Shown: positions 6,890-62,276 of the stretch, piece after piece | Numbering within the stretch: the stretch's first letter is position 1 | Layout of the letters: each line of letters starts with the position of its first letter | NCBI RefSeq assembly: GCF_041381155.1 | Contig: NC_091134.1 | Coordinates: 2,104,001 to 2,168,000 of the forward strand | Direction: 5' to 3' | Source of the DNA: Argopecten irradians | Taxonomy: Eukaryota > Mollusca > Bivalvia > Pectinida > Pectinidae | Length of the DNA stretch: 64,000 nt | Made by a program: the position numbers and the translations under genes | Notes under the pieces: model-generated | Databases searched by the model: none | The model's input: the letters and a program-made list of their open reading frames with translations, nothing else | What the model was told of the DNA's origin: nothing

Positions 6890-8660
6890 TAGAAGCAAAA
6901 ACAAAAAATGTAACAACAAAAACACTAGCTGTAGTAACAAAAACACTACCCGTTTATAACAACAACGAAAAATGTAGTATAAAAAACACTAGCTGTGGTG
7001 ACAAAAAGGCCCTGCAGGTAGGGCGTTAGAATTGTACCTGCTGCCCCTATTGCATGATCGTAAAAGGCGACTAAATTTAGGATCTTATCTTTTCTATTCT
7101 TCCTAACTGACTTTATCCTTCCTAATGCCTCCCTTGGCACCGCCTCACTTTTGGCCTTGAGTTGAGCGTTCGCCCCTGTGAGGAAGGCTCTGGTTCTGTC
7201 CCCTGGCCGAGACACACCAAAGTCTATAAAAGTGGTAGTTTCTGCTCCTGCTTAGCGCTCAGCAAAAAGGGAGTGGGACGACTGGTTCGCCCGTTGTCAG
7301 TATAATGTGACCGGGTGGGGGTGTTGCTTGGTGTCTTCGGCGGCATGCTCCAGTGATATAGCACTATAAAAAGGGCAAAAGTTCCACTATACAAGAAGAC
7401 ACAACATGAATATACCGCAGTCTCCCGAAACACACGCACAACATACCGCACCTCGCACAACATACACGCAGGACACAACCGCATACTTGGGAGGCCGTCT
7501 AACTTACATGACCATAGCTGTTACTAACTATAGGACGTTAATGACAAAACACACTTACTTAGTATCAAAACAAAACAAACATAATGGTGACAAAAACACT
7601 AGCTGTAGTGACAAAAACACTAGCTGTAGTGACAAAAAACACTAACTGTAGTGAACAAAAACTAACTGTAGTGACAAAACCTAACTGTAGTGACAAACAC
7701 ACTAATGTAGTATCAAAACACTAACTGTAGTGACAAAACACACTTACTGTAGTATCAAAAACACTAGCTGTGGTGACAAAAATACTAGCTGTAGTGATAA
7801 AAACACTAACTGTAGTGACAAAAACACTAACTGTAGTGACAAAACACACTTACTGTAGTATCAAAACACTAACTGTAGTGACAAAACACACTTACTGTAG
7901 TATCAAAAACACTAGTTGTGGTGACAAAAACACTAGCTGTAGTGACAAAAACACTAACTGTAGTGACAAAACACTAACTGTAGTGACAAAACACACAACT
8001 GTAGTGACAAAACACTAACTGTAGTACAAAACACTAACTGTAGTGACAAACACACTCTGTAGTGACAAAACACTTACTGTAGTGATCAAAAACACTAACT
8101 GTAGTGAAAAAACACTAGCTGTAGTGACAAAACACTAGCTGTGGTGACAAAACACTACTGTAGTGACAAAAAAACTAACTGTAGTGACAAAACACTACTG
8201 TAGTGACAAAACAATAACTGTAGTGACAAAACACTAACAAAGTGTGACAAAACACTAACTGTAGTGACAAAACACACTTACTGTAGTGACAAAACACATA
8301 CTGTAGTGACAAAACACTACTGTAGTGACAAAACACACTGTAGTGACAAAACACACTAACTGTAGTGACAAAACACACTTACTGTAGTGACAAAACACAC
8401 TACTTACTGTAGTATCAAAAACACTAACTGTAGTGACAAAACACTAACTGTAGTGACAAAACTCACTTACTGTAGTGACAAAACAATAACTGTAGTGACA
8501 AAAACACTGACCGCTGTAACAACAACAATATGTGTAGTATATCAAAAACACTAGCTGTAGTGTGACAAAAACACTAGCTGTAGTGTGACAAAAACACTAG
8601 CTGTAGTGTGACAAAAACACTAGCTGTAGTAACATTAACATTATATGTAGTAGCAAAAAC
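6890..8660. repeat. 20-bp minisatellite (ACTAACTGTAGTGACAAAAC type)
   Basis: An imperfect tandem array with a period of about 20 bp, split by a SINE-like insert at about 7008-7541. Variants alternate 'actgtagtgacaaaa', 'cttactgtagtatcaaaa' and 'agctgtagtgtgacaaaa', so several sub-repeats were amplified separately. The edges (6890-6990 and 8500-8660) are more degenerate than the middle. The open frames across it are products of the repeat and not genes. Confidence 0.92.
7008..7541 (+). mobile_element. SINE-like element inserted in the 20-bp minisatellite
   Basis: It has a Pol III B-box-like GGTTCTGTCCC near 7191 and a core shared with a second copy at 57472-57816 (GGCCGAGACAC, GTCTATAAAAGTGGTAG, GGTGTCTTCGG, ending GGAGGCCG...GTTAAT). 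It is flanked by TGACAAAA on both sides, which fits a target-site duplication, although that string is also part of the minisatellite unit. The length, near 530 bp, is long for a SINE. Family not named; a tRNA-derived invertebrate SINE with a conserved central domain is my best guess. Confidence 0.65.
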
Positions 8661-23800: not shown

Positions 23801-26800
23801 ACTTGAAACTTGATAAAGCATATACCGGTAAACAGCTGATAGCTGACAGAGATTTTTTTTCTCTCTTTCCCTCTCTTTCCCCTCTTTCTCCCTGATATGT
23901 TGCCAAAGTAGTATTAGTGAAGTTATGAAGCACGAAAGTCATCCTTTATGACAATATACGTTAGTTATATATGTTACACGGTCTGACAACCATTAATTTT
24001 TGTAGTTATAGATAGTATGGTGTTCTTAAACTTGCTAGATACATTTTTGTTAAACAGGAAATCCTTGATGTCATTCATATTAGTCATTAAAGGTCAAATA
24101 CGTGTATGGTATTGCTTAAACATTATATGAGATTTTTATATAATATAACCAGTAAGTTTTTTCTTGATATCTGAAGAATGCCTGTTTAGTTTTTAACAAA
24201 AAAAATCAATTTAATTTGACATTACAAGTCACCATAATGCTGAAACTTTTCTTTATATAAACTCAACAACATAAATACTTCCTCTTTGATTGAAGGTTCT
24301 GCACTGAAATGCATTATGTGTATTTAGAATAACTTGACCTGTGCAAAATGTGAGAAAATAAATCAATGTGATAAATTATTACGACCAAATAAAAAAAACA
24401 ATTATTTGTATTAGTTTTTCAGCCTTAGTTTGAGTCCTGTTTCCTTTGGATCGTTTTCCAATTTGCAGTTATACTGATAATATAACCATTGACTTATCAA
24501 TCTTTAACACTCGAATCAACTCCTATCATCCAGAAGTTTTACCGCAGCAGTACTTTCAGTACTTTGATTCTTTACTTACCAGAACCACTTTTGTTTGTAT
24601 TGTCGTGTTTCCCAAGCACGGCAGTGTCAATATTGTCTATTTCTGCTACTCTTCTCTTGGCTGTGAAGGAAAGAAATAGTAATACATATCTGTTGTTGGC
24701 TAAAAAAATTATATATAAAAGTGAACAAAATCGGAAACTAAGTCCTTCCACTGTTTCAGTATATATATATATATATATTTATATTATTTTGATCATTTTG
24801 TTACTTACCACGGATTTTTTTTTTGGGGGGGTTGGGGGGGGGGGGGTTCTGTACTTTTCTGTACAGTGTATACTTGTTGATCTATAATAATACACAATAC
24901 AGTGCATGTGCTATAGAATGCACAAGTAAAGAAAATTTACTTTCATGAAAGATAAATCTGTCAATAAACATTGGTGGCGAAGGAAGACAAATTAATAATT
25001 TGAATTTTCAATGGTTGGTAAGGTTTAACTTTCTAACCAAAGTTGAGATCATATAGGCATGAGCGAATGGATAACGCAAAAAGAAAATGGGAAAAGAATG
25101 GATACTTAGGTTAAAATTCACATCATAATTGTGTATTGCTATACTAACCTTGAGGTGTTGTGCCAAATTCTATTTTGATACCACCGAACGTTGTTGTAAC
25201 AATAGGTTTTGCTGTAGTTGGCAAAGTTGTTGTAGTTGTGGTTGGCATAGTTGTTGTAGTTGTGGTTGGCATAGTTGTTGTAGTTGTGGTTGGCATAGTT
25301 GTTGTAGTTGTGGTTGGCAAAGTTGTTGTAGTTGTAGTTGGCAAAGTTGTTGTAGTTGTGGTTGGCATAGTTGTTGTAGTTGTAGTTGGCAAAGTTGTTG
25401 TAGTTGTGGTTGGCATAGTTGTTGTAGTTGTTGTTGGCAAAGTTGTTGTAGTTGTTGTTGGCAAAGTTGTTGTAGTTGTGGTTGGCATAGTTGTTGTAGT
25501 TGGCATAGTAGTGGTCGTTGTAGTTGGCATAAATGTTGTAGTTGGTATAGTTGTCGGTAAAACCGTCGTTTTCGGCATTGTTGTAGGCATTGGCGTAACC
25601 GGAGGGATGAGTTTGGTTGTCGCTGATGTTGTGGATCTAGTTGTTGTTTTGGTTGTCGGTAACGGTGTTGTTGGACGAACAAGTTTTTCTGTAACAGACG
25701 TTTTTTTTTAAAATCCAATAAGAGCAAGAAATCGAATATTTCGTTATCATTGTTGCTAAAGACAAATGGCAAACAAGACTTGTGATTATCTTAAGCGTGT
25801 TGGTATAACCTTTCCATAATATATACAAATGTATATATATACTGTCGTAATCATTGTTCCGTTTAAATACTGCAGGTTAAAGCAAGATACATGTCCATTA
25901 CCATACTTATATGGTAAGTTCATATTATTTCAAAACAAGAATTTCACTAAATTATTTATGTCAACCTTTACCGCTTTACACAAAGTCCATATGAAGAAAA
26001 ACTTATAGAATATATTTCTCCGCAGGATTGACCGTCGTAAGTTATGACAGTCATAAGAACTCATTAAGATCTGATTTAGATAATTTGATTAGTTGTTGTT
26101 GGCAAAGTTGTTGTAGTTGTGGTTGGCATAGTTGTTGTAGTTGGCATAGTAGTGGTCGTTGTAGTTGGCATAAATGTTGTAGCTGGTATAGTTGTCGGTA
26201 AAACCGTCGTTTTCGGCATTGTTGTAGGCATTGGCGTAACGGGAGGGATGAGTTCGGTTGTCGCTGATGTTGTTGATCTAGTTGTTGTTTTGGTTGTCGG
26301 TAACGGTGTTGTTGGACGAACAAGTTTTTCTGTAACAAACGTTTTCCTTTTAAATCCAATAAGAGCAAGAAATCGAATATTTCGATATCATTGTTGTTAA
26401 AGACAAATGGTCAAACAAGACTTGTGATTATCTTTAGCGTGTTGGTATAACCTGTCCATAATATATACAAATGTATATATACTGTCGTAATCATTGTTCC
26501 GTTTAAATACTGCAGGTTAAAGCAAGATACATGTCCATTACCATACCTATATGGTAAGTTCATATTATTTTCAAAACAAGAATTTCACAAAATTATTTAT
26601 GTCGCCTTTACCGCTTTACACAAAGTCCATATGAAGAAAAACTTAAAGAAAATTTTTGTCCGCAGGATTGACCGTCGTAAGTTATGACAGTCATAAGAAC
26701 TCATTAAGATCTGATTTAGATAATTTTGCTGAGAATTTCTGGGTTCTTAAACAAAAAATACTAGAATTGTTTAGATATTTTTCTCAGCTTTTGCCCATGT

Positions 26801-37700: not shown

Positions 37701-40700
37701 CTATTGTCCCTTTTTTCAATACACTACATCTAAAAACAAGAAGATAATTTGATATCAAAACATATTTGTTCCTTTTTTATACTTCTAAACAGAGTTGAAA
37801 TTATATATCTGTTTCTTTCATTTTTTAACATACCATTGCATAGGAATCAGTTGGTAATCAAAAGGTAAAGCCTGTATATCTTTGCGCTGCATATCCATGA
37901 GAAGAGAGATAATTTTAAAAATAAGAATCCTCACCTTAACTTATTAAAGTCTCCTCAAAAAAAAAAGGAAAAAAAAAAAGAAGACTTTTCACGAACTAGT
38001 TTAATTTGTTCCTGTTTCTTATTGGTATTGATACAGTTTTGGCTTCATTATGCTCCTATTTTGCTCATTTTCTGCTTAAATACCATTTCAGAGGAATCAA
38101 GTTGCAAAATGTATGAAATTATTAATACCTGAAAGGTAAAGTGTGTAGCAACCATGAGGTTATTTATATCAAAATAAGGTAAGAGTTCTACCTTTACTGA
38201 TTGAAGACTCCTCCTCTGCCCATTTGCCTTTATAGCGAGCACTAAAACTGAACTGCTTCAGTCTCTCCTGTCAACAGTAAAAACATCAGTTTATCATACT
38301 GTTTAGATGTTATATGTCAACTTTTTAAATTGTAGATTAATTAACCATGATATTTGTAGGTTTATCACAATACATTTATATTAATCAAAATGATCTATTT
38401 TTGTATTGCATTGACATTTGAAATACATTGTATCATATCACAACAATTGAAATAAAACACTACTTACAACAATTCTCACAAAAGTTTACACCTTTTTCTT
38501 CATAATCAGACTAATTGATAAAATAGAATATGTTTCAATGCTAATGTACGATCTAATTGATTTTTCAAGGGATTGATCTGCCAAACAAATAAACAATGTC
38601 AATTCAATTTCTCTTTGTGATGCGAGTCATGATAGTTTTTATATCATTCTGAGATTTTTTCCCATCGAGGTTAAAAAACATTCAGTCATTGGCAAAACAG
38701 AAAGTCATATTTACTAGACTAAGTATAAAAACAAATAAAAACTAATCGTAAAAATAAGTTTAACAAGATCTGGTAAATCCCTGTGAATGTGAAAAAAATA
38801 AGTCTTGCTTAACCTTTGTCGGAAGCTCAAGGGCTGTCAATGCATTTACTCTTGCAGCATCAACTTCTTTCTTGAAATTTGGTCCTTTAGATTTCTAAAA
38901 AATAGAAATCACAAATTAACACTTATGCATAAACGCATACATCAAAATGCTATTAATACAACATTGAATTTCATTGCACTTTGTAGGTCACCATTTTCAG
39001 TGAGTTCAGTGGTTTATATCATTTCCTACCACAATTGGCGGTGTTATTCAACTCTCAGGACATTAAATAAATACTGCAGCTGTTCATTAACAATTTGTTT
39101 ATACCACACGTGCTATAAACTCTACGCATTCTGATTGGCTGACACGGTGAACTTTGGCAGCTTGATGTCCAAAACCGCTGTTGGAAAGCTTATGGTCGAT
39201 GTGTCAAAATACATTACGTTTTCATACATGTTAAATTGACCTTAAGTACTAATACATCTTGACGGACAAAAATTTCACTGAGATTCGTAGATTGAACGTG
39301 CATGAAATGAACTTGACCTTGATGGTAATGACTTGATGTATATCTGGCGGCAAATAGATGATGCCGTGTCGTGCGAATGCTTTTACATGTATACATCTTA
39401 GTCCGAAATTGAGTTTTTTTTCTTCTGGAAGCAACTATGAAGATTTGAACTCAATAAGACGTTAAATGAGTATTATTTAACCCTAAATATGTTCCCAATT
39501 AAAAGAATTTAATATCGATGGATTCTTTATCAAACGATGACTTTTGAATACAATTAGTGTCTTTTTGCTGATCAAAATATTACTACACTTTTTTGCATAT
39601 TTCGGTAAATACACGTTATTGTATCCCCGCCGTATTTCTATCGGCTAAAAACGAATATGATTGTGGTAGAAACAGGTCACACAACTCGTGGTGGCTGAAT
39701 ATTGAAGCTTTTAAAAAATAACTTAATCGTGTGGAATAAATTCAATGTTCAACAACCATTCATTGTGTAACCTCTATACATACAATAACTAAAAGGTAAA
39801 ATGTACGTACTTACATTGAAATGACTTTTTTTTATAATTTGAATTCAAACTAAATTTGGTATTTTTTGTAGGTTTATCTTTTTGTCAAAAGATGTTGAAA
39901 CAATTATTTCTGAACAGTAACAGATACATGTAGGTATTGAGGTATTTACTTATAACTAAGTGCAAAAATGTATTTAAAACAAGTGGCCATGAAGTGATTT
40001 AAATCACAAATTTCAGCAACCGTAATTACTTTATAGTATACCTTTGTCAAGAAGAGGTTTTTGTTTAGGTCCTCGCCTCCTCGATGGAAAGGAAGAATGG
40101 CTGAGGCTTTCACCCAGGCTCGGGATACTTTGTTGTCTAAATATACCACATGGTAGTGACTCTGAAAATGATAGATATACCACATGGTAGTGACTCTGAG
40201 AATGATAGATATACCACATGGTAGTGACTTTGAGAATGATAGATAACTACATGGTAGTGACTCTGAGAATGATAGATATACCACATGGTAGTGACTCTGA
40301 GAATGATAGATTTACCACATGGTAGTGACTCTGAGAATGATAGATATACTGCAGGGTAGTGACTCTGAGAATGATAGATATACCACATGGTAGTGACTCT
40401 GAAAGTGATAGATATACCACATGGTAGTGACTCTGAGAATGGTAGATATACCACATGGTAAGTGACTCTGAGAATGATAGATATACCACATGGTAGTGAC
40501 TCTGAGAATGATAGATATACCACATGGTAGTGACTCTGAGAATGATAGAGATACCACATGTGATAGTGACTCTGAGAATGGTAGATATACCACATGGTAG
40601 TGACTCTGAGAATGATAGATATACCACATGGTAGTGACTGAGAATGATAGATATACCACATGGTAGTGACTCTGAGAATGATAGATATACCACATGGTAG

Positions 40701-43700
40701 TGACTCTGAGAATGATAGATATATACCACATGGTAGTGACTCTGAGAATGATAGTATACCCAATGATAGATATATACCACATGGTAGTGACTCTGAGAAT
40801 GATAGATATACCACATGGTAGTGACTCTGAGAATGATAGATATACCACATGGTAGTGACTCTGAGAATGATAGATATACCACATGGTAGTGACTCTGAGA
40901 ATGATAGATATACCACATGGTAGTGACTCTGAGAATGATAGATATACCACATGGTAGTGACTCTGAGAATGATAGATATACCACATGGTAGTGACTCTGA
41001 GAATGATAGATATACCACATGGTAGTGACTGAGCATGATAGATATACCACATGGTAGTGACTGAGAATGATAGATATACCACATGGTAGTGACTCTGAGA
41101 ATGATAGATATACCACATGGTAGTGACTCTGAGAATGATAGATATACCACATGGTAGTGACTTTGAGAATGATAGATATACCACATGGTAGTGACTCTGA
41201 GAATGATAGATATACCACATGGTAGTGACTCTGAGAATGATAGATATACCACATGGTAGTGACTCTGAAAATAATAGATATACCACATGGTAGTGACTCT
41301 GAGAATGGTAGATATACCACATGGTAGTGACTCTGAGAATGATAGATATACCACATGGTAGTGACTCTGAAAGTGATAGATATACCACATGGTAGTGACT
41401 CTGAGAATGATAGATATACCACATGGTAGTGACTCTGAGAATGATAGATATATAGATATACCACATGGTAGTGACTCTGAGAATGATAGATATACCACAT
41501 GGTAGTGACTCTGAGAATGATAGATATACCACATGGTAGTGACTCTGAGAATGATAGATATACCACATGGTAGTGACTGAGAATGATAGATATACCACAT
41601 GGTAGTGACTCTGAGAATGATAGATATACCACATGGTAGTGACTCTGAGAATGATAGATATACCACATGGTAGTGACTCTGAGAATGATAGATATACCAC
41701 ATGGTAGTGACTCTGATAATGATAGATATACCACATGGTAGTGACTCTGAGAATGATAGATATACCACATGGTAGTGACTCTGAGAATGATAGATATACC
41801 ACATGGTAGTGACTCTGAGAATGATAGATATACCACATGGTAGTGACTCTGAGAATGATAGATATACCACATGGTAGTGACTCTGAGAATGATAGATATA
41901 CCACATGGTAGTGACTCTGAGAATGATAGATATACCACATGGTAGTGACTTGAGAATGATAGATATACCACATGGTAGTGACTCTGAGAATGATAGATAT
42001 ACCACATGGTAGTGACTCTGAGAATGATAGATATACCACATGGTAGTGACTCTGAGAATGATAGATATACCACATGGTAGTGACTGAGAATGATAGATAT
42101 ACCACATGGTAGTGACTCTGAGAATGATAGAGATACCATGTGGTAGTGACTCTGAGAATGATAGATATACCACATGGTAGTGACTGAGAATGATAGATAT
42201 ACCACATGGTAGTGACTCTGAGAATGATAGATATACCACATGGTAGTGACTCTGAGAATGATAGATATACCACATGGTAGTGACTCTGAGAATGATAGAT
42301 ATACCACATGGTAGTGACTCTGAGAATGATAGATATACCACATGGTAGTGACTCTGAGAATGATAGATATACCACATGGTAGTGACTCTGAGAATGATAG
42401 ATATACCACATGGTAGTGACTCTGAGAATGATAGATATACCACATGGTAGTGACTCTGAATGATAGATATACCACATGGTAGTGACTCTGAGAATGATAG
42501 ATATACCACATGGTAGTGACTCTGAGAATGATAGATATACCACATGGTAGTGACTCTGAGAATGATAGATATACCACATGGTAGTGACTCTGAGAATGAT
42601 AGATATACCACATGGTAGTGACTGAGAATGATAGATATACCACATGGTAGTGACTGTGAATGATAGATATACCACATGGTAGTGACTGAATGATAGATAT
42701 ACCACATGGTAGTGAACTGAGAATGATAGATATACCACATGGTAGTGACTCTGAGAATGATAGATATACCACATGGTAGTGACTGAGAATGATAGATATA
42801 CCACATGGTAGTGACTCTGAGAATGATAGATATACCACATGGTAGTGACTCTGAGAATGATAGATATACCACATGGTAGTGACTCTGAGAATGATAGATA
42901 TACCACATGGTAGTGACTCTGAGAATGATAGATATACCACATGGTAGTGACTCTGAGAATGATAGATATACCACATGGTAGTGACTCTGAGAATGATAGA
43001 TATACCACATGGTAGTGACTCTGAGAATGATAGATATACCACATGGTAGTGACTCTGAGAATGATAGATATACCACATGGTAGTGACTCTGAGAATGATA
43101 GATATACCACATGGTAGTGACTCTGAGAATGATAGATATACCACATGGTAGTGACTGGAATGATAGATATACCACATGGTAGTGACTCTGAGAATGATAG
43201 ATATACCACATGGTAGTGACTCTGAGAATGATAGATATACCACATGGTAGTGACTCTGAGAATGATAGATATACCACATGGTAGTGACTCTGAGAATGAT
43301 AGATATACCACATGGTAGTGACTCTGAGAATGATAGATATACCACATGGTAGTGACTCTGAGAATGATAGATATACCACATGGTAGTGACTCTGAGAATG
43401 ATAGATATACCACATGGTAGTGACTGAGAATGATAGATATACCACATGGTAGTGACTTTGAGAATGATAGATATACCACATGGTAGTGACTCTGAGAATG
43501 ATAGATATACCACATGGTAGTGACTCTGAGAATGATAGATATACCACATGGTAGTGACTGAGAATGATAGATATACCACATGGTAGTGACACTGAGAATG
43601 ATAGATATACCACATGGTAGTGACTGAGAATGATAGATATACCACATGGTAGTGAGAGAATGATAGATATACCACATGGTAGTGACTCTGAGAATGATAG

Positions 43701-46700
43701 ATATACCACATGGTAGTGACTCTGAGAATGATAGATATACCACATGGTAGTGACTCTGAGAATGATAGATATACCACATGGTAGTGACCTGAGAATGATA
43801 GATATACCACATGGTAGTGACTCTGAGAATGATAGATATACCACATGGTAGTGACTCTGAGAATGATAGATATACCACATGGTAGTGACTCTGAGAATGT
43901 AGATATACACATGGTAGTGACTCTGAGAATGATAGATATACCACATGGTAGTGACTGAGAATGATAGATATACCACATGGTAGTGACTCTGAGAATGATA
44001 GAGATATACCACATGGTAGTGACTCTGAGAATGATAGATATACCACATGGTAGTGACTCTGAGAATGATAGATATACCACATGGTAGTGACTGAGAATGA
44101 TAGATATACCACATGGTAGTGACTCTGAGAATGATAGATATACCACATGGTAGTGAATGAATGATAGATATACCACATGGTAGTGACTCTGAGAATGATA
44201 GATATACCACATGGTAGTGACTCTGAGAATGATAGATATACCACATGGTAGTGACTCTGAGAATGATAGATATACCACATGGTAGTGACTCTGAGAATGA
44301 TAGATATACCACATGGTAGTGACTCTGAGAATGATAGATATACCACATGGTAGTGACTCTGAGAATGATAGATATACCACATGGTAGTGACACTGAGAAT
44401 GATAGATATACCACATGGTAGTGTGACTCTGAGAATGATAGATATACCACATGGTAGTGACTCTGAGAATGATAGATATACCACATGGTAGTGACTCTGA
44501 GAATGATAGATATACCACATGGTAGTGACTCTGAGAATGATAGATAAATTTATACCACATGGTAGTGACTCTGAGAATGATCAAGATATACTCACATGGT
44601 TTCTGGGAGTAAGTAAAATTAGACCCTACCAGTGGCTTAATGATATCAAAAATTGATATACATGTTCAGCATTCTGGTAATGACTACAAGCAATGATAGA
44701 TATACCTTACGTGGTATGGTAAAATTGACTATGTTGTGGTGATTGATATACCACATTTTATTCAAAAGCATGGTAAGATCATGACAATTATCTGGCTATG
44801 ATAAAGAAATCAGAATTTTATACTTACTAGGAAACATGGTTTTCTGATACTGCTCGAAATAGGATGTGTCTGGATCGATCTCAACCATTGCTGGCCACCT
44901 TACATCAAGTAAAGCAATCTAATGAGATATCATTTATTCAAAATACTTTAGAATGTTATAAATGATTCTGATGCAATGATGCATCCTACAGTAAACGTTA
45001 ACATATAACATTTTCAAAAAGTCCATGTGATTTTCCTATTTCAGGAATATTCTAGAAATGGTACAAATGATTATTTATATCTATATGAAATGAGCGATGT
45101 CACACTATGCAATGAATAGCTGACACGAGATATTAAATGTTTTCTCTATATTTTAATTTCTTGATTTATTTTGTTTTAAAACAAAAGTCTTAACATGTAT
45201 ATTTGAAAATAATACATATTGCCTCAATATTGGAACAACAATGTTTAAGAGATATTTAAGATTTACCAAGGATAGCCGACCATCCTGGCCCAAACAATAC
45301 TGCCCTCAGAATTATTTGGTTGTAGAAATGTTCCGATTCATCATAATCCTGTTCTTTCTTATCACAGCTGTTGTAAGTTGCGTCTATAAATTTACAAGAA
45401 TACCACAATGCTAAAGCAATAAACTAAAAATCACATTAAAGCAATAGTCACAATACCATTGATATATTAAACTGTCAGATACTTGTCCAAACAAAAAAGA
45501 TCCATGACTGAATCGTTCAACTGATGAAGCAATAGTCATTTTCAGTTTGTTTCAGCTCTACATTTTATATAAGTTTAGTAGTCTATATTTCTGTAATATA
45601 TGAAATAGCACAGTATGAAACATTATGCTGAACAGGATGGATTCAACCCGACACCAAACACCAGGAACATTTAGGTGAGTTTCTGATGCTCCGTCTTTGA
45701 GTCACATATAACTACTGGTCTTAACTTTATATCCTATATTCACATCAATTACAATTTCAACATTTAAATCAAATTATCAAACTAACCAGTGTTCATTTTA
45801 CATGTCCACTTTTCATCAATTTCGGTTGGGTCATTGATGTCTCCTAGAAATCTCCATTTTTGGCAGGTAGTATTCGAACATTGTACCCAAGTTCCTGTAA
45901 AAAATATAAAACATTTTAGCCATAATAAGATTGGTATATGGGTATAAATATTGTGGAAAAAACTATCACACTAATAATTTCTCCACAATGTTCATACATG
46001 TCAGGGTTCTAATAATAATATAATGATTCATGTCTATTCACCCATATTTCTGTTTAAATGAATACCAGCTACTAAAAGTGGAAATATTGTGGAATTTATG
46101 CATAAATCGTAGGTAAGGTAAGATTTAAAAGTTACCTGTTTCTTCAATTTCTCTTTCCATGAGCAACTGTTTTTTACTCTTTGGAAGATAGTCTGTAATC
46201 TTTTGATTATTCTCCGGAAAACCTTTTTTCTTTTCTTTTTTCTTTACTACATCAACAGTCTTACTTTTTTCTGTTTTGTCATTCTTCTTTTCCTTCTTTT
46301 TTCTTTGTGTTTCAGTATTTTCTGGAAAAAAAAACCCCATACATTTCACTGAATAAAAATGCATGTATGATACATCAATTTACATATGAACAGTTCTAAT
46401 GAAAATATAATTGAAATGTTAAAGATGCTCCACCGCCAACAGAACATAAACGCATTTCTTATTAACACAAAAAGTTATATAAAATTTGTTTTGCTTTTGG
46501 CGCATGCACTATAAGTACTTTATTCCATAGAGGACATAGCACTACAGAATTTTTCAGAATGTAATTAATTATTTTAGATATTTATATCTTAAAGTAAACT
46601 TATATTACCGGTAGAAGCTCAGCCCTTTCAATGGTGGTAATGGTGTAAAGAAAGTAACTTTTGTTACTGAAGAAAAATACTTAATAGTCTGCTCCTGTTT

Positions 46701-58294: not shown

Positions 58295-59406
58295 CTTTTC
58301 TGCTACAACAGTAGCTACCAGTAGGCCTATTCACCCCATTGTAACTCGGTACATCAGCATCTTAGATTAAAATCTGAGGTTGCATCAGAATTTAAATTGC
58401 CATTCTGTACTTTCTATGTCTTAATAAGTTTGTTACTATATGAAATTTAGCTGAAATTACAAGTGCACAAGATCTTGAATTGACAGTCGCCAAAGATTAA
58501 ATTCCAATAGGCACTATACATATCCAATCATTCAAACTTGCAGAAGTTTCCTAGAATAAGACCTATGTTTTTTTGTGTGGAGCCACATTTACACCATATA
58601 CATATACCCTAAACTAAATAAAGTTTTAATAATACTTAAAGCTGAAACTCTAAATTCAAAGAATTTCAATATTCAAAAATTAATAAACATTTGAGTGCAT
58701 GCATGTAGATCTAGTAAATAACGTTAATTATCCATCTACAGTACACAGTGTATCATAAAAACCGTATTTCCCGCCTTTCCTACTCTGCATAAACGTTAAA
58801 TGTAATATTGATTAATTAGACCTTCATTACAGTAATTAGTCTCCCATAAACAGTTTCATTCTCTCACCAAATTCATTTGATAATGTCGCAGTTACAAGTT
58901 CCCAACGTTTGGCTGAATTTAAACCACAAAGTCTGTCCTAAGCGTATGATGTTTACCCTCAACAGACGACAACTATCTTCTTTTCGTCTCTAAATACCGA
59001 CTCGTTGATTTACACTACGTGCAGTGGTTACGTCCGATTATGTTCCGAATGTCATTTCCCATGCCTCATTGCGATGTTCATGCGCATCTCGAGCACTTGC
59101 TGGGCTGGCGCACGGAGCAGCAAGCTGGGAAAGGAGGTGACATTTTCCCCTCAATACGCTGTTTAAAACATTTTTGGACCTGTATATATGACATTTCATG
59201 TTAAAATGACTCCTTCAACTGCATAATTTCAGAATGCTTTTTGCTGGTAAGCTATACAAAGACGCTTGAATGTAGGTCAATTTACTGTTTTGATGTCCGA
59301 TTTTGTTAGAGCAGCCATTTCCCGCTAGATGGCGGGTCGGAATCGTATTTATGTCGTACACGTGCTGATGTCAACATAAGCAAATTTCGTCGAACCAACG
59401 TTCAGG

Positions 59407-62276
59407 ATGAGTGTTGAAGTGAAAACACCGACACGGACTCAGTTTGAGCACACCGAATTCCATTGTGGGGAAAAACAATTAACTGGACGAAATTCTCCAC
59501 CACTTAGAAAATTTTCATTCAGTGACAATGTCAACAAGAATCAAAATGAAGGAAAACCAATTCGCAAACGCCGATTTAGCCAGTTTCGTACCGATTCAAA
59601 TCAGCACCAAACATTTGGTTTCAAGCGAAAGAGGCTTAAGTCCATGCCATCAGAAACAATAGTGCTTCCTACAAAGTTTCTTCTTGGAGGAAATATCAAC
59701 GATCCGTTAAACTTAAATAGTATGAATGATGAGGAAATAGACAAAGTGTTGAATGAGAAGACGCCAGTATCCTCGCCATTACCAACCCCTATTCACAGAC
59801 AAAAGGTAGAGGTTCAAATTCCCACAAACATTACAGACCCTTTAAATCTGAATCTTGATGAGGACTGGAGTTTAACAAAAGGAGGCAGTCGCAATAAGAA
59901 AAAACGCCAACACAAAAGTAAGAAGAAAGGTGACTCGAGTCAGACTACATCAACTTCATCTTTCATGTCAACATCTTTGTCTAAAGAACCTTGCTCGGAG
60001 AAACGAAAAGGTCTTCTGGAAGCATTAAGGATTGAAATTGATGAGGATGATGAATCCATTCCTGGTGCTCATGATCAGGAAACCAGTAGAAATGTATCCA
60101 CATCTTCAACAGAGACGACTGAAAAATGCAAGACTGTTCCTAATGCAGATAAAATTGTTTCTCCCGTCATCCCACAAATGTCCCCTAGTAACTCATTTTA
60201 CAGACGGCGGCGGCGCACACTAAGCATGAGTGACGCCAGACCTGAACCATCTTCATCAGTTGCACGGTCCATTTTGAGAACATCATTAAGTCCACCGAGA
60301 GCTCCTTCAGATCTTGACAAAGTGACACCACCAAAAAAGTTCAAGAGACAGTTAAGTCAAAAACCTACTGAAAAAACCACCCCATGTTCAACTTCATTTA
60401 AACCATTTCCTAAGAAAGGAAAGTTCATTTATGGCAACTACAACAGATATTATGGGTACAGAAACCCAGACACTGAAGACGATCAGAGACTTGTGTCTTT
60501 CAAGAAAGATTGGTTTGAAGGAAAAGATGCAATTGACATTGGATGCAATGTTGGCCATGTGACATTAGCAATAGCAAAAGAAATGCATCCTCGTAAGATT
60601 GTAGGAATTGACATTGATTCTAGTCTGATAGCTGCAGCTAGAAAAAATGTGAGACATTACATCTCAAAAGAGAACATTGGCAATGGCAGTTTTCCAATAT
60701 CAAATACATTGAGTTACGGTCCAATTGCTGCACCACCAGTAAATGACGCTGGAAGCAATCCTAAATTTCCAAACAATGTTTTGTTTGTACAGGTAAGGTT
60801 CATTTTAAATGTCATAATTTCTCTGTCAATGCAAGATTTTTAAATTAAAACTATAAAGGCGAGGAAAAACAAATGCCTAAGTAACAAACACTTATATGTA
60901 CATGTTACCCAAATTATAGTAAATTGTACTTTATCTTGGCCTATATTAATTCAAATTTTTGAAAAAGTATAGCAAGAGTTGGTCAGTTTTCAGCAATATG
61001 GGTTGTTTTTAGTCACAAATACATACCCCACCAGTTAGCTAGGCTATATTAGGCTAGTTATAAGTACACAAGTTTTGGTGGTTAGATTTCCCCTCGACCT
61101 GTAATGATCACTATTAGTATTAGTGGCCATGGTGGTACAATGGTCTGAGAAACTAAGACCGTCAAAATATTGGAAGGACCCTGCCCCCAAAGAATCTAGA
61201 CTATTGTGGTCCAAAATAGATCACCAAAAATAAATTGATCAATAATGAGATATATTTTAGTAAGGTCTGGATCTATTCTAGATATATAACTCATAATGCA
61301 TCTGCATAAAACAGTTAAACTGTAACATATTACATAAATAGTTCTTTGTTTGTAGATGTAGATATTTACTTATAAATACCAAGATTACAAAGTTCTTCAA
61401 TTTAATTTCGCAGATAATAGGAGATAATTTATTTTATGAACCAGGTATTTAAGTTAAATATAGTTAAAATGGAAGTCTTCACAAGAGTAATATCTTTGCC
61501 GCTATAATAGTTACTGCGTAGCTTCAACTTGTTGAAACATGGTTGTAATATATATATATCCAGTCATCCACATTAGCTTGTAGATTGCAATTGTCAACTG
61601 TATGTATTATTTATGTTTTCACAGGGGAATTATGTACTAGAAAGAGAGGAGTTGTTAGAACTGCAGAAAGAAGCTTATGATATCATCCTAGCATTAAGTC
61701 TAACCAAATGGGTCCATCTTAATTTTGGTGATGATGGTCTAAAGCGGATGTTCAAGAGGATCTATAGACAGCTACGACCTGGGGGACGACTCATCTTGGA
61801 GCCCCAGCCCTGGTCCTCGTACAAAAAGAAAAAGAAACTGACAGTAGGTGTTTTATTCTCAAATAATAATTATGATAACATGTCAAAAGGAGTAGCATAT
61901 TTATATATAATTAGCATTTGTTCTGTTAGGAAAAAAGTTGGTAACTAAATAAAGCAGCCTAATAATAAAGGTTCTATTTCCATAAATTGTGATCAATTTG
62001 ACACTGAATAACTTTTTTTCAATAATAAAGGTTCTATTTCCATCAATTGTGATCAATCTGACACTGAATAACTTTTTTTCCAAACTGAGTTCTAAGAATT
62101 TTATATTCTTTTTCTCTTTGATTTTTATTTTTCTCTTTCATAATTTCAGCCAGAGATTTTTGAGAACTTCAAAAGAATTTCTTTCAAACCAGAGCAGTTC
62201 TCTGACTACCTTCTCTCTAAAGAGGTTGGATTCTCAACTTGTGAAGTTGTAGACACGCCCTTCAACAAGTCGAAAG
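59407..62276 (+). CDS. MEPCE: MEPCE: 7SK snRNA methylphosphate capping enzyme (Bin3 family), last exon outside window
   Basis: Exons 59407-60792, 61625-61843 and 62150-62276 join in frame (phases 0, 0, then 1). The N-terminal 330 residues are low-complexity and basic. Then come the RNA-binding signature [12 protein letters not shown] (about 340-352), the SAM-binding motif [14 protein letters not shown] (about 376-390), GIDIDSSL (about 399), [20 protein letters not shown] (about 485-505) and [16 protein letters not shown] (about 513-528). The C-terminal [12 protein letters not shown]...[17 protein letters not shown] is the known end of Bin3 domains, lacking only the final QRPVYLF-like segment, which must lie past 64000. 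The enzyme methylates the 5' gamma-phosphate of 7SK RNA in the nucleus and stabilises the 7SK RNP that holds P-TEFb. The start is the first ATG of the long frame. No breaks seen. Confidence 0.95.
60793..61624. other. Intron 1 of MEPCE
   Basis: 832-bp intron, GTAAGG donor and TTTTCACAG acceptor. AT-rich; no repeat or nested gene recognised. Confidence 0.7.
61961..62080. repeat. 60-bp tandem duplication in MEPCE intron 2
   Basis: Two direct copies (61961-62020 and 62021-62080) starting AATAATAAAGGTTCTATTTC, with three or so differences. The inner ends read TGACACTGAATAACTTTTTT in both. Confidence 0.88.

Follow-up and report, generated by a model that had tools for sequence, protein, structure and literature searches.

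Amphioxus genes contain "mirages", minisatellite-like tandem duplications that lie over an intron/exon boundary and occur at either 5' or 3' boundaries. According to the available portions of two reports (PMC3087553, PMC3902484), mirages are present in Adh3, the globin genes BflGb6 and BflGb9, troponin C, and PGBD5, the last two having been added by the second report. These accounts describe splice signals that are kept in many units, splicing that is reportedly undisturbed, and units that are homogenized inside the cluster while the boundaries are left out. The globin work also proposed that introns are gained by tandem duplication of splice sites (PMC3087553). Here, we describe a tandem array of 132 units of about 34 bp at the acceptor of an intron in a ZCWPW1/2-like gene (the ZCWPW array) of the bivalve Argopecten irradians. 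It lies in a window of 64,000 nucleotides (assembly GCF_041381155.1, contig NC_091134.1, positions 2,104,001 to 2,168,000), and further arrays of this kind are found in a KIF1A-like kinesin gene next to it. We put at roughly 85% the probability that the ZCWPW array is a mirage, that is, an ordinary minisatellite whose seed fell on a splice junction and which is tolerated through exon definition.

The ZCWPW array resembles the amphioxus mirages, as far as the available accounts describe them, in that its units hold an intron end and an exon start, the authentic junction is the edge copy, and the unit is confined to the gene. It differs in the gene affected and in the size and number of units, with 132 units of 34 bp compared with 3-6 units of 150-160 bp in BflGb6 and units of 10-72 bp in Adh3. 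The lancelet PGBD5 repeats over splice sites, in the text available, comprise 2-7 imperfect copies depending on the assembly, with larger units that are partly annotated as exon. Amphioxus has a smaller genome of about 41% G+C, unlike the window, where G+C is 28-40% by 2-kb step (about 33% for the A. irradians genome). Of two markers tried for the taxon, COX1 gave no match, although 8 of 14 controls had one, and the egg-laying-hormone family was uninformative because it matched nowhere, the controls included. Among mollusks, a minisatellite with a 27-bp unit in intron 3 of an abalone TSSK1-like gene is similar in its intronic site, and its copy number varies; in contrast to the ZCWPW array, the accessible part of that account does not describe it as holding exon sequence or a splice site (PMC6905558). 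No mirages or boundary-spanning minisatellites outside amphioxus turned up in the openly licensed literature searched, where searches on ZCWPW1 listed a single paper, on an oyster (PMC12111275). The ZCWPW array therefore belongs to an established kind, of which it is a very long example and which is found repeatedly in this genome, and is not categorically new; the novelty implied by a preliminary description of this DNA is weakened by the amphioxus cases, as reported in those excerpts (PMC3087553, PMC3902484), and by the arrays in the neighboring gene.

The array and its host gene

Tandem Repeats Finder (TRF) called a 34-bp array at window positions 40141-44600. By wrap-around alignment to a repeating 34-nt unit, the minus strand from 44585 to 40141 resolves into 132 tandem units with a consensus of 13 nt of intron end (CTATCATTCTCAG) followed by 21 nt of exon start (AGTCACTACCATGTGGTATAT). 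This consensus is unchanged in 83 of the 132 units, and the exact 34-mer occurs 87 times. Unit length is 34 nt in 98 cases, 32 nt in 15, and 20-42 nt in the remaining 19. The CAG of the acceptor is kept in 125 units, as is GGTATA (125/132). The 49 variant units fall into 33 types, the commonest of which has lost AG (CTCAGTC for CTCAGAGTC; the sole change in 12 units). The array accounts for 4,424 of the 4,666 nt (95%) of its intron (40162-44827, minus strand), and its copy number excludes a chance origin. A predicted RNA fold of the repeat (z -1.86) was matched by 6 of 200 shuffles and was given no weight.

The last unit, at 40174-40141, is the real acceptor. Its intron end (CTATCATTTTCAG, 40174-40162) differs from the consensus by one mismatch (TTTTCAG for TTCTCAG), and its exon start (AGTCACTACCATGTGGTATAT, 40161-40141) by none. 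This unit runs directly into coding sequence, TTAGACAACAAAGTATCCCGAGCCTGG, which encodes LDNKVSRAW (SHYHVVYLDNKVSRAW), so the edge copy is the authentic junction. The preliminary description had proposed the 13 + 21 nt composition, some 130 copies filling 4.4 kb of intron, and a last unit that is the real junction, and all three are borne out by the unit alignment. Two positions need correction: the junction lies at 40.14-40.17 kb rather than at 44.6 kb, and 40042, given there as the start, marks the distal limit of the exon and not of the array.

The host gene is encoded on the minus strand, and our model covers its exons from 46321 downstream. Pfam identified a zf-CW domain (PF07496, E = 7e-11) in the exon at 45787-45894 (GTWVQCSNTTCQKWRFLGDINDPTEIDEKWTCKMNT), followed by a PWWP domain (PF00855, E = 3.4e-13, scored on a translation in the PWWP frame, with the exon junctions joined by us). 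The zf-CW end and the PWWP start share an exon at 45267-45383 (GSIVWARMVGYPW). The domain continues in an exon at 44828-44898 (WPAMVEIDPDTSYFEQYQKTMFP in the PWWP frame; donor CCTA/gtaagt, with the slash marking the splice junction) and, beyond the array-bearing intron, in the exon at 40042-40161 (SHYHVVYLDNKVSRAWVKASAILPFHRGGEDLNKNLFLTK; donor AAAG/gtatac), numbered 15 in the preliminary description. The PWWP domains of NSD2, NSD3, and MSH6 were among 19 matches in a sequence comparison with the PDB. Judged by its domain order, the gene is ZCWPW1/2-like. The earlier identification as ZCWPW1 is thus upheld for zf-CW followed by PWWP, but the choice between ZCWPW1 and ZCWPW2 is not settled, because a second zf-CW/PWWP-like gene is present on another contig (C2:4942600-4944080, minus strand; zf-CW, E = 1.2e-14; a weak PWWP-like exon, E = 0.01).

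The exon half of the repeat unit corresponds to YHVVY of the PWWP domain, for which the NSD2 counterpart is RQYHVQFF. At the equivalent point, the paralogue on C2 reads (V)YHVEFLG in one uninterrupted exon, with neither repeat nor intron, and has TAYCATGTGG in common with the exon half of the repeat. An exon on contig C15, which we take to be MSH6-like from its sequence (VHVQFFDD), likewise has no intron there. This PWWP strand is common to other PWWP proteins, and the exon is therefore older than the repeat.

Local origin and age of the units

We searched the A. irradians assembly itself (845,758,899 bases in 1508 contigs) for the unit. The exact 30-mer was found at 88 places, all 88 of them in the array, and the 34-mer with up to 3 mismatches at 103 places, for which 103 were counted in the array. 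At this threshold, no copy of the unit lies outside the array in the 846-Mb assembly, and the many unlinked places that would mark a dispersed satellite were not seen. With regard to length instability, germline or somatic, which is a further trait of the amphioxus type, the analysis covered one haplotype, and the exon/intron flank at 44600-45420 has a single place in the genome. Eight stretches of viral contigs that contain a 16-mer of the unit were taken as chance matches. It is well supported by these comparisons that the repeat was born locally, by what would have been a duplication across the gene's own acceptor; the preliminary description had suggested this origin and named a dispersed satellite as its refutation, which the confinement of all 103 places to the array speaks against.

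Unit-like sequence continues past 44585, at the intron-internal edge, to about 44716 (44586-44716, minus strand). The best decayed stretch, ending at 44675, scored 41, whereas the highest score among 200 dinucleotide shuffles was 28 (0/200 reached the score). Nearer the array, at 44659-44586, the alignment is weak, with 10 mismatches in each of two units. Two control stretches of intron and the exon-side flank were at chance, their scores being reached by 43, 195, and 57 of 200 shuffles, respectively. Within the array itself, 12 of 29 substitutions fall in the 20 units closest to the exon (permutation P = 0.004) and 2 in the first 20 units. No higher-order blocks were detected among the unit variants, as no lag from 1 to 89 rose above permutations (P = 0.925). 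Collectively, the picture is of a homogenized array body flanked by older sequence beyond the 44.6-kb edge, and of an exon-proximal end that is somewhat older; in the partial accounts of amphioxus mirages, too, units are homogenized inside the cluster while the boundaries are exempt. The prediction that the oldest units would be found at the 44.6-kb end agrees with the decayed units beyond that edge, but it did not foresee the excess of substitutions near the exon.

Arrays at splice junctions of a neighboring kinesin gene

We surveyed the window plus 100 kb on each side (C1:2,004,001-2,268,000; 264 kb, of which 62 kb is masked and 202 kb unmasked) and counted TRF rows of at least 90 bp with a period of at least 12 and at least 2.8 copies. 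The 33 rows that qualified cover 15.6% of the unmasked sequence (202 kb) and include, for example, 118 copies of 35 bp and 162 copies of 17 bp. At least five arrays straddle an exon boundary (6 of the 33 rows, one array being split in two): the ZCWPW array plus four others, which belong to a KIF1A-like gene 41-72 kb from it and lie at three donors and one acceptor. Five is a lower bound, since, of 116 open segments that cross array edges, nine were run against Pfam, where one of them, the motor exon, scored above the cut-off, and the rest of the 116 were judged by eye.

All four kinesin arrays are on the minus strand, and their positions are given in the window frame. Array A (86238-85881, L029:1881-2238) has seven 50-bp units and a fragment, reading CACAGTGGCTGGGTCAAACGATGGGTG/GTAAGTTTATTT across the donor of a PH exon that ends in WVKRWV. 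Array B (116684 to about 115959, L032:1959-2684), the one split by TRF, consists of about 20 decaying 35-bp copies, GGGAAACAARGSCAG/GTAATTA, at the donor of a motor exon ending in GNKAR. About 20 units of 85 bp form array E (102730-101072, L030:7072-8730), which starts with ATGTAGAGG/GTRAGGGG at the donor end of an exon terminating in EELRYVE; its unit also holds a second possible donor, GATG/GTAAAA. Array C (99411-99162, L030:5162-5411), the acceptor case, has about six 42-bp units, CTATACTTAG/TTTACTGTGAA, that precede the exon FTVNVTKSF, and its distal copies have decayed.

In each of arrays A, B, C, and E, the exon-adjacent copy is taken as the presumptive working splice site. When exons were joined at the exon-proximal copy, the PH and motor joins gave a continuous PH domain (3.7e-13) and Kinesin motor segment (5.9e-51), respectively; the motor exon alone matched Kinesin in Pfam at 2.8e-14. 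Another pair of exons from the same gene matched KIF1A (1.5e-25). At up to 2 mismatches, the units of arrays A and E are confined to their own arrays (7/7 and 14/14 places, respectively). An apparent excess of junction-crossing arrays in the kinesin gene, 4 compared with 0.9-1.2 expected for 13 arrays (P = 0.015-0.037), is not claimed because the number of exons (30-40) was estimated and the gene was chosen for its hits.

Other repeats in the survey region were noted in passing. A 45-bp, three-copy array at 111628-111490 (L031:7490-7628, minus strand) abuts the KIF1 acceptor of SPHLVNLNEDP; it is without clear exon sequence and was left out of the count. Arrays at -67994, 127121, and 152608 have splice-like letters without coding proof and were also left out. 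At 127013-128017 (L033:3013-4017), the sequence TTTTAG/GAGACTGTG/GTAAGT, to the left of a 49-bp array, resembles a 9-nt microexon, and the units of that array carry a similar stretch, TTTTGGGAGACTGTGGTATACC. Two of the 33 TRF rows lie in open frames (25213 and 71453), and these repeats, a Thr/Pro-rich 24-bp repeat at 25213-25544 and an 18-residue, 54-bp repeat at L027:7453-7643, resemble coding repeats. The remaining 25 rows gave no proof of a boundary crossing. The window also contains a methyltransferase gene on the plus strand (59380-61948) with a Bin3 domain (Pfam, 3.6e-28 in 61577-61948), presumably of the MEPCE/Bin3 type.

Exon definition and alternative explanations

In exon definition, splice sites are paired across the exon. 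The mirage reading would begin with a 34-nt tandem duplication that straddled the acceptor of an intron in the ZCWPW1-like gene and that slippage or unequal exchange may then have expanded to 132 units. Selection would hold only the exon-joined copy, which provides a working acceptor and an anchor, leaving the other units as silent look-alikes in the intron. Acceptors within the array would be bypassed because the acceptor nearest the exon's donor wins; pairing a unit-internal acceptor with the unit's own GTATAT donor would yield an exon of just 15 nt. The copy favored in this way would be the last one in an acceptor array, nearest the exon's donor, and the first one in a donor array, nearest the exon's acceptor. 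In 5 of 5 arrays, the copy so favored is the one that adjoins the exon. We infer that the ZCWPW array has no function of its own.

Several observations weigh against this reading. Exon definition would have to silence very many acceptor look-alikes that are transcribed before the real one, and the substitution excess near the exon was unpredicted. In the kinesin gene, the PH exon by itself matched neither a PH domain in Pfam nor anything in the PDB, the joined PH domain matched only centaurin-delta 1 in the PDB (2.7e-4), and the protein of array C had no Pfam match; the exons of arrays C and E are putatively assigned to KIF1A by sequence. Finally, the assembled CAG/AGT acceptor of the ZCWPW array does not fit the PWWP frame set by the upstream exon, being off by one base. 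The exon at 44898-44828 ends in phase 1 (CCT A/gtaagt), whereas CAG/AGT CAC needs phase 0 and CAGAG/T needs phase 2.

The exon at 45383-45267 (exon 13 in the earlier numbering) has its zf-CW half and its PWWP half in different frames, owing to a slip of 1 nt. This slip is opposite to the one at the junction, and the two cancel: with GT-AG at every modeled intron, the assembly gives an open frame of 686 codons in ten exons, from 46321 to the stop, and in that reading the first half of the PWWP domain is out of frame. An exon of the KIF1 gene in the same assembly (L031, about 7380-7490, minus strand) has CCCC where KIF1A homology (LNEDPLMSEC) needs CCC, one base too many, which is probably an assembly error. 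Because this exon also has an extra base, base-level assembly indels are the likeliest cause of the slips in the ZCWPW gene. It is also possible that the assembly shows a true allele whose two shifts compensate for each other, or that an array acceptor is used (that at 40193 fits).

The last of these leads to the alternative that fares best, though we regard it as unlikely: that the array is exonized and partly coding, with transcripts that use internal array acceptors and repeat-encoded residues in the β2-β3 loop of the PWWP domain. In the 140 nt examined upstream of the junction, a CAGAG/TC acceptor one unit away (40193) restores the phase with a stop-free insert, ITTMWYIYHFQ, and none of the three sense-strand frames meets a stop between 44551 and 40315 (open reading frames of 1470, 1472, and 1422 residues). 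However, this three-frame openness survives in 25% of cases when the intron half is shuffled and in 7.7% when the whole unit is, and we therefore dropped it as a sign of selection for exonization. The phase problem likewise has a simpler source in the opposite 1-nt slip of the zf-CW/PWWP exon together with the KIF1 exon slip. Phase rescue by an upstream array acceptor (40193 or 40262) works on paper and is not needed to explain the data.

It is somewhat less probable still that the array, or its length, is an artifact of mis-assembly of a short repeat. The copy number of such arrays is often misjudged, and the 1-nt slips in ZCWPW exon 13 and the KIF1 exon do point to base errors. Nevertheless, the 49 variant units of 33 types show no repeated block (P = 0.925), unlike a looped assembly, and the same anatomy is present at four other junctions. 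The most improbable account is that the repeat came from elsewhere, as a dispersed satellite or mobile tandem repeat, and that the exon boundary then shifted into it: although the region is rich in minisatellites (15.6% of its unmasked sequence), a search allowing up to 3 mismatches placed the unit only in the array, and the exon half of the unit is conserved as coding sequence, part of which the C2 paralogue shares.

Returning to the mirage reading, we consider the chances evenly balanced that minisatellites born at splice junctions abound in this genome and arose separately from the amphioxus cases, so that animal genomes rich in minisatellites would generally give rise to mirages. In the ZCWPW array, up to 131 acceptor look-alikes lie upstream of the real acceptor, and the neighboring gene has arrays of about 7 and about 20 donors. 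Such genes bear on how splice sites are chosen, whether by the order in which they are transcribed, by their strength, or by exon definition, and their recurrence bears on intron gain through tandem duplication of splice sites. If this broader reading is correct, each mirage would be a natural test of the choice the spliceosome makes among dozens to more than 100 near-identical splice sites, and mirages would constitute a standing supply of units for new exons or introns.

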